In this document: positions 2,139 to 7,074 of the stretch, piece after piece | Layout: each line of letters starts with the position of its first letter | How positions within the stretch are numbered: the stretch's first letter is position 1 | Assembly (NCBI GenBank): GCA_026645815.1 | Contig: JAPKMR010000015.1 | Location: forward strand, 1-64,000 | Direction: 5' to 3' | From: Anaerolineae bacterium | Lineage (GTDB): Bacteria > Chloroflexota > Anaerolineae > B4-G1 > SLSP01 | Length of the DNA: 64,000 bases | Translations under genes and position numbers: made by a program | The notes under the pieces: generated by a model | Database searches by the model: none | What the model was told of the DNA's origin: nothing | The model's input: the letters and a program-made list of their open reading frames with translations, nothing else

Positions 2139-2630
2139 TCACTGCCGTTCGACTTCCACCACGCCACCACAATAGGGGCATTTGTGAACCGGGGTTTTGA
2201 CGCTGAAACTGTTGCCACAATAGGCACAGCGCCGCACCACTTTGGATGGCATCAAGCCTGGGAAGACGTAGACTTCCCGGTCCTCACGTTTCTCGCGATA
2301 AGCCTCGCCACGTTCCTGAAGCAAATCAAAGGCTGCCAGCACGGATGCGTGCGGCGCACCCAGATTAGCCACCGCCTGCGCTACAGTTGTCTCGGCATCC
2401 GAGGTGCGCGCCAGTTCGGTAATGCGCCCGGCGAGCTGCGCCGGGCTGAGCGCGCGCTCGCGCGCCAATTGCCGTCCACCAAAGAAAGCCAGCGCCCCAC
2501 CGCCCGCCAATAGCAATAAGCTCAGCAATAAGCGCTTAGGCTCCTGAACAGCAGCGCACAGGAAGAGCAGCCCCGGGGCGAGCATCAGCCCACCTACAAT
2601 CACCATCGCCAGCGGCAAGAATTTCTTCAT
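2139..2630 (-). CDS. Membrane protein with winged-helix-like middle and zinc ribbon
   Basis: A 163-residue protein with two N-terminal transmembrane segments (about 5-27 and 34-51), a helical middle region that may be a small winged-helix-like domain, and a C-terminal zinc ribbon with two CxxC pairs (CAYC and CPYC). It is the last gene of the four-gene minus-strand operon that begins with the Cys-tailed DUF2207-like protein, 52 bp after the coiled-coil gene. A strong GGAGGTGA Shine-Dalgarno precedes the ATG. No enzymatic motif is visible. A role as a membrane or cytosolic accessory of the operon is inferred from position only. Confidence 0.75.
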   Translation of the reverse strand: MKKFLPLAMVIVGGLMLAPGLLFLCAAVQEPKRLLLSLLLLAGGGALAFFGGRQLARERALSPAQLAGRITELARTSDAETTVAQAVANLGAPHASVLAAFDLLQERGEAYREKREDREVYVFPGLMPSKVVRRCAYCGNSFSVKTPVHKCPYCGGVVEVERQ

Positions 2631-2682: not shown

Positions 2683-3864
2683 CTATTTCCACTGCTTCTC
2701 AGTGGCCTCGGTGAGCGCCGCACCCAGCGATTCAAAAGCCACACGGATGGTATCATCATCCAGAGCCGCGACAAAGCCCTGCGCTTGTTGCGCAAAGCGC
2801 ACCGGGTCCTCAGCAAAACCACTCGCCGAACCAAAAGCTTTTTTGGCAGCGGTCAAAGTCTTAAAGAAATCCAGGCTCTCCTGCGGGACTGTAATCCGCA
2901 ACGGTTTGAGATATGAACTGTACTCCGCCTGCTGCTGAAGCATCTTGCGCACGCCGCCGCGGAAACCGTCCAAGCCCTGCGTCAGACCGTTGAAGAGGCC
3001 ATCCAGATGCGCTGCCTTGGTCAAGCCCTCTTGATAGCGGTCGCGCAACACATTCAACTCCGCCAATTCCGCCAACGCTGTCGCCAAATCCGGCAGAAGA
3101 CACGGAGGAGGTTCCCGTAGCCCGTCAATCACGGCGCGCGCGGTACGTTGGTGCGCCAGAAACGCGCGACGCTCTTCATCATCCAGGTAATCGAATTCCG
3201 CTTGCAACCGCGCCTGCTCCAGCAGCTTCGCTTGAACATCCTGGCGGTAGCGCTCTTGGGTCTCCGATTCCTGCTGACGCACCGTCTGCCAATCCTTACG
3301 GTGCCGCTCCAACTGTTGCTGCAATGCCGTTACCATTTTGAAGGTCTTGTTCCGCTGGCGCACCAGTTTGTTCACCGCAAAAAAGCGCCAAATGGCGCCA
3401 AGCCAACGGGCCTTTTCTTTTACGGCGGCATTGAGGCGCGCCAGTTCCGCCTCGCCGGCGGCAATATCGGCTTGCAGTGTGCGCTCTCGCTCTGCAGCCA
3501 CAAGATTCGCCGCGTGATGACCCTCGCGCGCCACCTGACTGCGCCGCAACAGCACAGCAATCTCTGCCGCCAGATCCGGCAACACCTTCTCGCGCAATTC
3601 GGTGTAGCGCGTCTCAGCCCGTTCCTCTTCCATGGGCAACAACGCCAGCACCTCGCGGTGCAACTCCGGTCCGGCGGCGCTATCCACCGCCATCAACTGA
3701 TCCACAGCCGGACCTATAGTAGTCTGATAACGCAGGTCATGCTCGCCATAGACTTTCGCATAAGCCGTCTTCAGCATCTGGAACGCCGGCAGTGTGGCCT
3801 TGATGTCCGCCAACCGCTCGGTCAGTGTTGTGTCCAGGTCCTTCAAACTTGCAACTGTTGCCAT
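2683..3864 (-). CDS. Coiled-coil protein of unknown function in the radical SAM operon
   Basis: A 393-residue, strongly helical protein rich in Glu, Arg, Gln and Leu, with long heptad-like stretches (about residues 80-230). It has no signal peptide and no recognisable catalytic motif. Two Trp-containing segments (WLGAIWRFF near residue 152) may form an amphipathic or membrane-touching helix. The stop codon of the radical SAM gene overlaps this start (TGATG; a GTG three bases earlier would give a 4-base overlap), so the two proteins are translationally coupled and probably made in similar amounts. I do not recognise a family. Scaffold, toxic-anion-resistance-like (TelA-like) or membrane-remodelling roles are conceivable but unsupported. 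Confidence 0.8.
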   Translation of the reverse strand: MATVASLKDLDTTLTERLADIKATLPAFQMLKTAYAKVYGEHDLRYQTTIGPAVDQLMAVDSAAGPELHREVLALLPMEEERAETRYTELREKVLPDLAAEIAVLLRRSQVAREGHHAANLVAAERERTLQADIAAGEAELARLNAAVKEKARWLGAIWRFFAVNKLVRQRNKTFKMVTALQQQLERHRKDWQTVRQQESETQERYRQDVQAKLLEQARLQAEFDYLDDEERRAFLAHQRTARAVIDGLREPPPCLLPDLATALAELAELNVLRDRYQEGLTKAAHLDGLFNGLTQGLDGFRGGVRKMLQQQAEYSSYLKPLRITVPQESLDFFKTLTAAKKAFGSASGFAEDPVRFAQQAQGFVAALDDDTIRVAFESLGAALTEATEKQWK

Positions 3865-5252
3865 CACTTCACCCCCACACCCTGCACGCGTCCCTCATAA
3901 CGGCGCCTAACGCGCCAGACAAACCGTGTGAGCGCACTATTTCGTTGGTGCTCCGCGAGTTCCTTAAAGCCACCCTGCTCATCCCAATACAGCGGACAGG
4001 CGCCGCAGCACAGGTCAGCATGTTCGCACTCCCGACACCCAGGCGGCAAGAATTTCTTCTCGCGCCAGTACCGGGCGGCACGGCGGTTCCAGATCACATC
4101 AAAATCCTCGCGCAGCAGATTTCCAATTCCTTGCTCAAAACTAGAACACGGCAGCACATCACCATTGGGCGCCACGGAGAGCAAGCCATCAGCGGCGGCG
4201 CAAGATTTACCACCCAAGCCATGCGCCGCAGGATTGAAGAGACACATTGGCGTCGGAGAATACCAGACAAAGCGCATACCCCGCGCCTCGGTACGTCGTT
4301 TCAAATCCAGAACAATCGGGCCAATTTCAGTGTAGCTGATATCCGGCACGCCCACCGAATCCCCTGTGCGGATGAGCATGTTCATCGAAAGGTATTCCTG
4401 TCCCATATCCGCGAGCAAGTCAATCATAGCCGGCAGCGCCGCGAGGTTTTGCCGGTTGACGGTAGTATTCGTGTGCGTGTGAATTCCTGCCGCCTTAAGG
4501 TTCTCCACCGCGCGCACGGTTTTCTCGAAAGCTCCAGGATGCCCCACCACCGCATCGTGCGTCGCCGCATCACCTGCCTCCAGGCTCACCTGTGCGGAGT
4601 GCAAGCCCTCCGCTGCCAGCTCCGCCACATAAGCGGGGTCGCCGCAGCGAATACCGTTGGTGATGAGATTGGTGCGCATGTCGCGCCCGCGCGCATGGGT
4701 GATGAATTCAGGCAGGTCGGCACGCAAGGTCGGTTCGCCCCCAGTGAAGGAGACCATCGGCACGCGCGCCTGATCCATGATCTTGTCAATAATGCGCTTG
4801 ACCTCGCCGGTGCTCATCTCCGGTGTCTGGCGTCCTCTATCAGGCGCGCTGGCATAGCAGAAAAAACAGCGGTTCTGGCAACGGTAAGTCAGCGCGATTT
4901 CGGAAATCACCGGCAGCTTGCGCTGGTGAACACCGAATCCGGTGCGTTGGATCGCAGGCGTCTCGCCAGGACGGTTCTGTAACAACGTCTCAAGCGTGCG
5001 CAGCAAAGCCCTGATATCGGAAACAATTTGCTCTTCGGGCACAGCATAACGCGTCGCGAGCGCCTTAACTACCGCCGCCACATCCACAGTTGCCGGGCGA
5101 TAGAGTGCGTCGAGCACCTCCGCCGCCGTGGCATTGAGGTATTGCACGCGGTTCGGGCGCAAAATCAACACATCATCTTCGGGGCGCACAAAGATCAAAT
5201 CGCGCGTCGCCGCGATGAAGGAAGTCGTAGCGTCAAGGAAAGTCTGGTCCAT
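3864..5252 (-). CDS. PqqD-like/radical SAM/SPASM peptide-maturase-type enzyme
   Basis: A 462-residue protein with three parts. Residues about 17-92 look like a PqqD/RRE-type peptide-recognition domain (VRPEDDVLIL...NATAAEVLDAL). Residues about 115-320 are a radical SAM barrel with C125, C129 and C132 (CQNRCFFC) for the AdoMet-binding [4Fe-4S] cluster and the GGEP motif at 171-174. Residues about 337-419 form a SPASM domain with C337, C351, C369, C406, C409, C415, C416 and C419 for auxiliary clusters. RRE plus SPASM is the architecture of RiPP maturases that make thioether or C-C crosslinks in ribosomal peptides. The gene immediately upstream in the operon encodes a protein with a Cys-rich repeat tail, the obvious candidate substrate. 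ATG at 5252 is chosen; a TTG at 5276 would add 8 residues. Confidence 0.88.
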   Translation of the reverse strand: MDQTFLDATTSFIAATRDLIFVRPEDDVLILRPNRVQYLNATAAEVLDALYRPATVDVAAVVKALATRYAVPEEQIVSDIRALLRTLETLLQNRPGETPAIQRTGFGVHQRKLPVISEIALTYRCQNRCFFCYASAPDRGRQTPEMSTGEVKRIIDKIMDQARVPMVSFTGGEPTLRADLPEFITHARGRDMRTNLITNGIRCGDPAYVAELAAEGLHSAQVSLEAGDAATHDAVVGHPGAFEKTVRAVENLKAAGIHTHTNTTVNRQNLAALPAMIDLLADMGQEYLSMNMLIRTGDSVGVPDISYTEIGPIVLDLKRRTEARGMRFVWYSPTPMCLFNPAAHGLGGKSCAAADGLLSVAPNGDVLPCSSFEQGIGNLLREDFDVIWNRRAARYWREKKFLPPGCRECEHADLCCGACPLYWDEQGGFKELAEHQRNSALTRFVWRVRRRYEGRVQGVGVK

Positions 5253-5313
5253 CAAACATCCATCAATGGTAAACAATGGCCCATGTCACATTATCGGGCA
5301 TGGTGGGTACAGC

Positions 5314-7074
5314 CTAGAACTTACTCACACAGGCGGAGTGACACGCGCTGTGGCAAGCGTCGTGAACACAGGCGGAGTGACACGCACTGTGGCAGGCATC
5401 GTGGACGCAAGCCGAGTGGCAGGCGTCATGAACACAGGCGGAGTGGCACGCACTATGGCAGGCATCGTAGCCAGCAGGCGCCTTACCCGTAATCTGATCC
5501 ACAACCTGAGCGGCAGACGCAGCCAAACCTTCCGCTTTGCGACTGAGGTCACCCGCGACTCCCTCCATCAGCCCCGCCATCATACCCGCGGTACGCACGG
5601 GAGTGGATTCGCGGACACTTTCCCACAACGAACGCGACTCACCGGATGAGGCTTTGCCCCCTACGACTTTGCCGCCAGACTCAATGGGCATGGGGCGATA
5701 GTTCCGCGAGAGCATGGACCAACCCCATAAAGGATCGGTCATGATGACGGGACGGGTGGACGTATCCTCCCCAAGCATCCGCTCCCACTCGCTCAAAGCA
5801 GAATCGGCTTTCTGCTCATAAGCCTTGCGGGTCTCCTGGCTATCTGCATTCCAAAGTTTGGACTGTAGATGCGCCGTGAGCAGTTGCAGGACATGATCCA
5901 CCGCCGATTGGCTCAACGTTCCATCATCCGCAATGCCGTCTATCAATGCCTTCTCATAATCTTCCAGCGGCGCATCGGTGGAATTGACCTCTACCTGCAG
6001 CGGCTTATGGTTCAGAATCGTAATTACGTCACGCGCCGCTAATTGCATCAAAATCAACGTCAGCACCTTGGTAGTGTCGCCAATATAGAGCGCCGCCTCA
6101 ATCATGCTCAAGTCCGGCACCTTCCCCGGTTGTTCATAGGTCTCGATTTCGATAGCGGGCGCCTGGTACACAGGCTTGGGCTGCTTGGGACGCGTCCATC
6201 GGAAAGCCAGGAAACCGATCAAGCCCACGATCGCCAAACCAGGACAGCCGAAGCAAAGTCCAGTGATCGCCCAATCTCTGGCAGTGGGCTGCGCCGGTTC
6301 AGGCGTGGAGATGGTCCCACCACCGGGAACAAGCTCCTGCGCACCTGCCGGCGCCAGGGTCAAGTGGCGCTCAGGAATATAGATCGAGGGCGTAAAATCC
6401 GCCTGTGGGCTGAGGTTTTCCTTGGAAATATAGAGCGAGAGCCAGACCTTGCCAGTTGTCTCATCCGGGGTGGGATAGTAAACCCAGCGATCAAAGCGCT
6501 CCACAATGCTAGAGTTCACGGTTAACCCGGTCGCACTCACCAAATCGCCGGTCACTTGCTCCGGTTGGGTGATATCGGCAGGCAATTCAATAGGCAGGAT
6601 AAAGGTGACGATTTGCTCCTCGATGGGCAGTGCCCATTCAAAGGGCGCCCAGGCAAGAACACGATAAGCCTCACCCTTGTAGGTCGTCTGATCCAGTCGC
6701 GCCGGCGCCGAATAGTGAATCAACACGGTATAATCCCGTCCAGGCTCCGTGCTGAAGCCGAAGTCCACACCGTACAGATTACCGCCCTGACTGCGCAGCT
6801 GCACCGGGCGCGTGGCGCCACCTTCCTCGATCGTCGAATCCAGAATTGTATGCCCCATGTCAAAGGGACCAATGGTGGTAATACCACTGCGAACATCTAC
6901 CTCATGAAAGGTCAGACGATATTTGATATCGAGAGTGCCATCACTCCGAAGCGCCACCTGGGATTCTGCTTTGAGGAGTTGTGGCGGTTCGGCAGCATGA
7001 ACGGGCAACACCCCTCCCAATAGCAAAACCAACCACAGGGATAATAACACTAGAGAACGCCTGATCCTATCCAT
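5314..7074 (-). CDS. DUF2207-like membrane protein with eleven-cysteine repeat tail, candidate radical SAM substrate
   Basis: A 586-residue protein. An N-terminal signal peptide (cleavage likely after VHA, residue 27) precedes a beta-rich extracytoplasmic domain resembling DUF2207 (about 30-240), a transmembrane helix (about 268-292), and a cytoplasmic region (about 300-530) with helical and Gly/Ser-rich parts. The last 51 residues (536-586) are a repeat: one YDAC, seven HSAC and three VHDAC units, ending VSKF. Cysteines fall at 539, 543, 547, 552, 556, 561, 565, 569, 574, 578 and 582. The predicted topology leaves this tail in the cytoplasm, where the radical SAM enzyme encoded 61 bp downstream works. 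First gene of the operon, with a GGAGAGA Shine-Dalgarno. DUF2207 assignment is tentative; the tail is read directly. Confidence 0.85.
   Translation of the reverse strand: MDRIRRSLVLLSLWLVLLLGGVLPVHAAEPPQLLKAESQVALRSDGTLDIKYRLTFHEVDVRSGITTIGPFDMGHTILDSTIEEGGATRPVQLRSQGGNLYGVDFGFSTEPGRDYTVLIHYSAPARLDQTTYKGEAYRVLAWAPFEWALPIEEQIVTFILPIELPADITQPEQVTGDLVSATGLTVNSSIVERFDRWVYYPTPDETTGKVWLSLYISKENLSPQADFTPSIYIPERHLTLAPAGAQELVPGGGTISTPEPAQPTARDWAITGLCFGCPGLAIVGLIGFLAFRWTRPKQPKPVYQAPAIEIETYEQPGKVPDLSMIEAALYIGDTTKVLTLILMQLAARDVITILNHKPLQVEVNSTDAPLEDYEKALIDGIADDGTLSQSAVDHVLQLLTAHLQSKLWNADSQETRKAYEQKADSALSEWERMLGEDTSTRPVIMTDPLWGWSMLSRNYRPMPIESGGKVVGGKASSGESRSLWESVRESTPVRTAGMMAGLMEGVAGDLSRKAEGLAASAAQVVDQITGKAPAGYDACHSACHSACVHDACHSACVHDACHSACHSACVHDACHSACHSACVSKF
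5326..5470 (-). repeat. Degenerate tandem coding repeats of the Cys-rich tail
   Basis: The DNA encoding the HSAC and VHDAC units is itself a tandem repeat. A roughly 39-bp block holding CACAGGCGGAGTG and GGCA(G/T)GC on the plus strand recurs with few changes around 5328, 5367 and 5430. Near-identical neighbouring units suggest growth by slippage or unequal recombination, so tail length may vary between strains. It is wholly inside the coding sequence and is not a CRISPR array: there are no spacers and the frame is kept. Confidence 0.75.

Follow-up and report, generated by a model that had tools for sequence, protein, structure and literature searches.

The 64,000-nucleotide stretch of Anaerolineae DNA analyzed here (the window) contains a set of four minus-strand genes running from position 7074 down to 2139. 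The first (5314..7074) encodes a 586-residue membrane protein, P0002, and its last coding stretch (5317..5460) specifies the tail CHSACHSACVHDACHSACVHDACHSACHSACVHDACHSACHSACVSKF, which contains 11 Cys. This gene ends at 5314 and is followed, in the same direction, by the gene for a PqqD(RRE)-radical SAM-SPASM enzyme (rSAM; 3864..5252). A sequence-only reading of the window had singled out these two open reading frames; both are present on the minus strand at the coordinates it gave, except that the rSAM frame, which reaches TTG 5276, probably starts at ATG 5252, since homologues begin at that ATG. The third gene (2683..3867) encodes a 394-residue coiled-coil protein and overlaps the rSAM stop codon; it is kept after the rSAM in Chloroflexota. 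The fourth (2139..2630), also conserved in Chloroflexota, encodes a small membrane protein with two transmembrane (TM) segments, a winged-helix-like middle, and a C-terminal zinc ribbon. Given the stop-codon overlap and the zinc-ribbon gene that comes next, the arrangement resembles an operon of four genes. Overlaps of one to four bases between the tail gene and the rSAM gene occur in several of 60 rSAM homologue loci. All 46 non-Chloroflexota loci have a membrane protein of ~341 residues after the rSAM (e.g., L073:7301-8326 (+) and L056:7404-8453 (+)), for which no significant Pfam match was obtained. The loci were also checked for a further conserved small Cys-rich open reading frame besides the tail protein, and none was found. 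No conserved leader peptidase or exporter was found at the loci either, the conserved neighbors being only the coiled-coil and zinc-ribbon proteins (Chloroflexota) or the ~341-residue protein (other phyla).

P0002 is predicted to comprise a signal peptide (residues ~1-27), a β-rich outer domain (~30-240), a TM helix (~276-294), a cytoplasmic helical domain (~324-436), and a disordered C-terminus. This topology is based on hydropathy and on an AlphaFold model (pLDDT 77.6), in which the N-domain is β-rich, residues 276-294 form the TM helix, residues 324-436 form a helical domain, and the tail is disordered. A weaker hydrophobic stretch near residues 337-355 falls within the folded helical domain (helix 334-347) and is not a second TM segment. 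Hydropathy analysis of the partner proteins gave one strong internal TM segment in 37 of 37 and a recognizable N-terminal hydrophobic segment in most. A signal peptide followed by one TM helix places the tail in the cytoplasm, as the sequence-only reading had claimed, and the order of signal peptide, outer domain, single TM segment, and cytoplasmic tail was predicted consistently. The candidate substrate also fits its earlier description as a signal-peptide-bearing membrane protein rather than a small precursor. Structure comparison found the outer domain similar to the N-terminal β domain of M1 aminopeptidases, which suggests a likeness of fold only, and a PDB sequence search with the partner protein gave no match. 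The earlier "DUF2207-like" label was borne out in part: P0002 scored 16.4 bits against DUF2207 (PF09972/PF20990), below the Pfam gathering cut-off of 33, while homologues approach the family, L055 falling just short (23.9 bits against 24.4). Beyond these near-threshold matches, the DUF2207 family shares with P0002 a large outer N-domain, a TM segment, and an intracellular C-domain, but a Cys tail and an rSAM neighbor are not among the features described for it in the literature consulted (PMC10457818).

The tail itself is of the CHSAC/CVHDAC type. Its 11 Cys lie at the C-terminus, each preceded by Ala and spaced by 4 or 5 residues, exactly as first read from the sequence. In a set of 31 distinct CHSAC-type tails with 307 Cys in all, 286 of the Cys have Ala before them and 249 have His after them; neighboring Cys are 4 residues apart in 246 of 276 intervals, and the repeats hold up to 13 Cys. 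Some partners have extra Cys directly before the repeat (CYQGCFVH or CYEGCFVH; L049, L054, L061, L064, and L067). Between the window and a close relative (L021), the tail has accumulated 14 synonymous and 0 amino-acid changes, with a dN of 0.034 in the body of the protein. Across wider groups the tail dN is at most about 0.18, with dS mostly saturated. TRF detects the tail as a repeat, and its codons are mixed. A dN near 0 at high dS indicates that selection holds the protein sequence and that the repeat is not the product of recent DNA slippage; purifying selection on the tail is strong.

The rSAM has the domains that had been assigned to it by eye, namely an RRE-like domain, a CxxxCxxC motif, and an eight-Cys SPASM region. 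Pfam recognized PqqD (PF05402; 42.8 bits, cut-off 23.4), Radical_SAM (PF04055; 89.5 bits), and SPASM (PF13186; 36 bits). Ten Cys are invariant in 52 homologues, including all three of the CxxxCxxC motif and seven of the eight in the SPASM region, where the spacings C-X12-G-X4-C and C-X2-C-X5-C-X3-C are visible. The Pfam PqqD model recognized the domain in the window enzyme and in L070, whereas L036 and L044 gave no match at E <= 0.01. A structural model of the rSAM (pLDDT 86.7) aligns along almost its entire length with SuiB, SkfB, and CteB, and EpeE was also matched. The best NCBIfam matches include the tetrapyrrole enzymes AhbD and NirJ, all far below cut-off. An RRE/PqqD domain on a RiPP-maturase fold points to a peptide substrate. 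The proposal of a RiPP-like system holds as far as the resemblance of the enzyme to RRE-bearing maturases is concerned, but the loci lack a short precursor and a conserved gene for a peptidase or exporter.

A single scan across 84,980 species genomes, with the rSAM as query, yielded 60 loci (38-93% identical). They belong to Chloroflexota, Planctomycetota, Gemmatimonadota, Pseudomonadota, Elusimicrobiota, Omnitrophota, Lentisphaerota, Kiritimatiellota, Verrucomicrobiota, Spirochaetota, Aminicenantes, and Bacillota bins, about twelve phyla overall. Five loci cut by a contig end or a run of N were left out of the pairing count. An adjacent upstream gene encodes a CHSAC-type tail in 53 of the 55 assessable loci, counting one with a short tail (L056) and one with its tail at the contig start (L034). 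L028 and L029 are the two exceptions, with the tail gene at another place in the same genome. In both, the rSAM (L028:303-1715 and L029:6004-7395) keeps its coiled-coil and zinc-ribbon genes, and the tail gene lies beside an RNase J-like gene. Among 301 Chloroflexota genomes searched at E <= 1e-60, all 22 rSAM matches have a Cys-tailed DUF2207-like protein beside them, 3 of the CHSAC type and 19 of a second, CACAC type. The expected neighborhood of the rSAM homologues was thus upheld. Three marginal rSAM matches (L016-L018, E above 5e-4) were not useful as controls.

Searches that began from the tail led to the same loci. The DNA pattern for CHxACHxAC, applied to 400 Chloroflexota genomes, gave four real tails, all adjoining an rSAM, and four spurious matches. 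The latter (G172, G188, G196, and G307) were rejected for a wrong frame or the lack of a tail-bearing membrane protein, and had no rSAM. The phylum of one Elusimicrobia locus was searched in 150 genomes, once with the enzyme and once with the tail; either search gave nine genomes, and these were the identical nine, in line with the predicted co-occurrence; the genes are adjacent in all eight newly fetched loci of this group. Chance pairing was rejected on the basis of this two-way co-occurrence, and the pairing of rSAM and tail is near-obligate from both search directions. The rSAM distances correlate with those of the partner bodies (r = 0.93; 0 of 5000 permutations as high), a correlation that would also follow from simple shared ancestry. 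The pairing is real, broadly conserved, and undescribed as far as testable, but adjacency alone is no proof that the rSAM acts on the tail.

The CACAC-type tail has the sequence CACACACAGCACACAGGGR or a close variant in 19 Chloroflexota loci (L137-L155). L004-L015 and L019, taken as presumed tail-less controls, proved to carry CACAC tails, and it was they that pointed to this second type. The bodies of CACAC and CHSAC partners are homologous (hhalign probability 99.8%, E 3.9e-29), but the tails are not. One change per tail type suffices on the rSAM tree, with weak support for the CACAC group because outlying long-branch paralogues fall nearby; the type of tail goes with the rSAM clade. CACAC tails retain only Cys, Ala, and a few Gly or Arg, so any chemistry common to both clades must use Cys or Ala. 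Directly upstream of the CACAC partner, 18 of the 19 sister loci encode a small two-TM protein with a C-terminal zinc ribbon, ending in TYQLTEEPKW (e.g., L152:3190-3558 (+)). It is similar in layout to the product of the window's fourth gene. On other contigs (L177:5744-9059 and L176:6355-7767), the window's genome also encodes a CACAC-tailed DUF2207-like protein beside a PqqD-rSAM relative without CxxxCxxC, a pseudo-rSAM, and an intact CACAC-clade rSAM that stands alone on a different contig from this pair. The pseudo-rSAM and the lone intact enzyme may work together as a non-catalytic and a catalytic partner.

Four features make the tail the most likely substrate: the enzyme's RRE-rSAM-SPASM layout, its strict pairing with the tail gene, the way tail type matches enzyme clade, and the position of the tail in the cytoplasm. 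We infer substrate, bond type, and function from these data, and consider it quite likely that this is a dedicated system in which the rSAM modifies a membrane-anchored tail, most likely by forming Cys thioethers. The membrane protein would sit in the membrane with its large domain on the outer side and its C-terminal tail exposed to the cytoplasm, where the rSAM would bind it through the PqqD-like RRE. The SAM cluster and the SPASM auxiliary clusters would then be used on the repeated units, one after another. A thioether link from each Cys to a nearby residue is the most likely product, with the recurrent Ala as the leading candidate acceptor; a Cys-centered modification with an Ala acceptor is the simplest shared chemistry because Cys and Ala are common to both tail types. 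The finished tail would remain part of the envelope protein and plausibly respond there to metal or redox state. The DUF2207 protein SMU.243 of Streptococcus mutans affects stress tolerance and biofilm (PMC10457818), a phenotype that by analogy is compatible with, but no proof of, a role in envelope stress or in metal or redox processes. What the pair probably makes is an undescribed modification on the cytoplasmic face of the membrane. Weighing against this reading are the missing PqqD matches of L036 and L044, the presence of AhbD and NirJ among the best NCBIfam matches of the rSAM, and the CACAC tail beside an enzyme without CxxxCxxC in the window's genome.

The same enzyme could modify the tail in another way, through C-C links, epimerization, or a change at His, Ser, or Asp that keeps Cys free. 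Such chemistry has precedents in the fold comparison, where SuiB, which forms a C-C link, was the top match and the epimerase EpeE was also matched, and in TvgB, which forms cyclopropyl groups on repeats (PMC9062424). The frequent His after Cys is in keeping with it, but the reduced composition of CACAC tails, with Cys or Ala as the only residues available to shared chemistry, makes it unlikely. A further explanation, that the Cys/His tail binds metal without being modified and that the rSAM acts elsewhere or makes a cofactor that the tail carries, is improbable. The regular Cys-His spacing would suit a metal or cluster, the rSAM is weakly similar to heme-pathway enzymes, and the operon includes a zinc-ribbon protein. 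The CX3CH unit also resembles unusual heme motifs, although a cytoplasmic tail is unsuited to c-type heme attachment; the peptide substrate indicated by the RRE/PqqD domain and RiPP-maturase fold, and the way tail type tracks the enzyme clade, argue further against this explanation. Neutral low-complexity expansion beside a chance neighbor accounts for the tail being a repeat that TRF detects, but is refuted by the mixed codons, the near-zero dN at high dS, the conservation across phyla, and the two-way co-occurrence.

The pair might instead belong to the TIGR04222/MNIO putative substrate group, with an incidental rSAM. TIGR04222 membrane proteins have a C-terminal low-complexity Cys tail, the proposed substrate of a neighboring MNIO maturase, and these tails are described as periplasmic (PMC12452194). 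The likeness is one of a membrane protein with a C-terminal Cys tail next to a maturase, and several partners match TIGR04222 weakly (13.2 bits for P0002 and 23.6 for the best homologue). These scores are far below the NCBIfam cut-off of 43, however; the maturase is MNIO there and rSAM here, and the tail is periplasmic there and predicted to be cytoplasmic here. MNIO (PF05114) was not found in the window's genome assembly (92% complete), and the same search was positive in two control genomes. This assignment is largely refuted and very improbable. A broader reading is possible, and we offer it tentatively: the DUF2207-like (perhaps TIGR04222) envelope superfamily may be a common carrier of post-translationally built C-terminal Cys tails, each type served by a separate maturase (an rSAM clade for CHSAC, its sister clade for CACAC, and MNIO for others), and the mature tail may be a built-in metal or redox element. 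If this carrier reading is true, radical chemistry equips a membrane protein, not a secreted peptide. The system could offer a first biochemical handle on DUF2207-like proteins, and its chemistry lends itself to direct tests, given repeats of up to 13 Cys and two tail types that can be compared with two enzyme clades.

NCBIfam and Pfam profile searches brought the pair to none of the curated cut-offs for specific rSAM-target systems, and no curated family covers it. The open, non-subscription literature yielded no description of the pair or of the tail motif in this sense, in line with its earlier designation as a candidate undescribed system. The closest parallels differ in the carrier of the repeat. 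The ACGX repeat consists of Ala-Cys dipeptides every four residues. The ACGX system (TIGR04340) likewise combines an rSAM/SPASM enzyme with an Ala-Cys repeat target, but the repeat here is CHSA, on a membrane protein of ~560 residues, and the rSAM scored 104.7 bits against a cut-off of 400. TIGR04117, the Cys-Xaa-Xaa-Xaa repeat radical SAM target, shares the Cys every four residues; its profile, however, is 98 positions long and has no membrane-protein body. It matched the tails of L070 (21.9 bits) and L055 weakly, below the cut-off of 50, and did not match the window protein. A TIGR04117 search of the window's genome gave no match, but neither did the controls, so this negative carries no weight. 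The sactipeptide/ranthipeptide maturases SkfB and CteB, and SuiB, share the RRE, radical SAM, and SPASM architecture and a near full-length fold match, but are under 20% identical in sequence to the rSAM here and act on short precursor peptides; in place of the short leader/core precursor of a classical RiPP, the candidate substrate here is a 586-residue membrane protein. Judged by sequence, the pair lies outside the ACGX, CxxX, and TIGR04222/MNIO groups by profile cut-offs and appears to resemble all three in its working. It would mean that rSAM/SPASM tailoring is not confined to small precursor peptides but also reaches a conserved membrane protein, present in about a dozen phyla, on its cytoplasmic tail.
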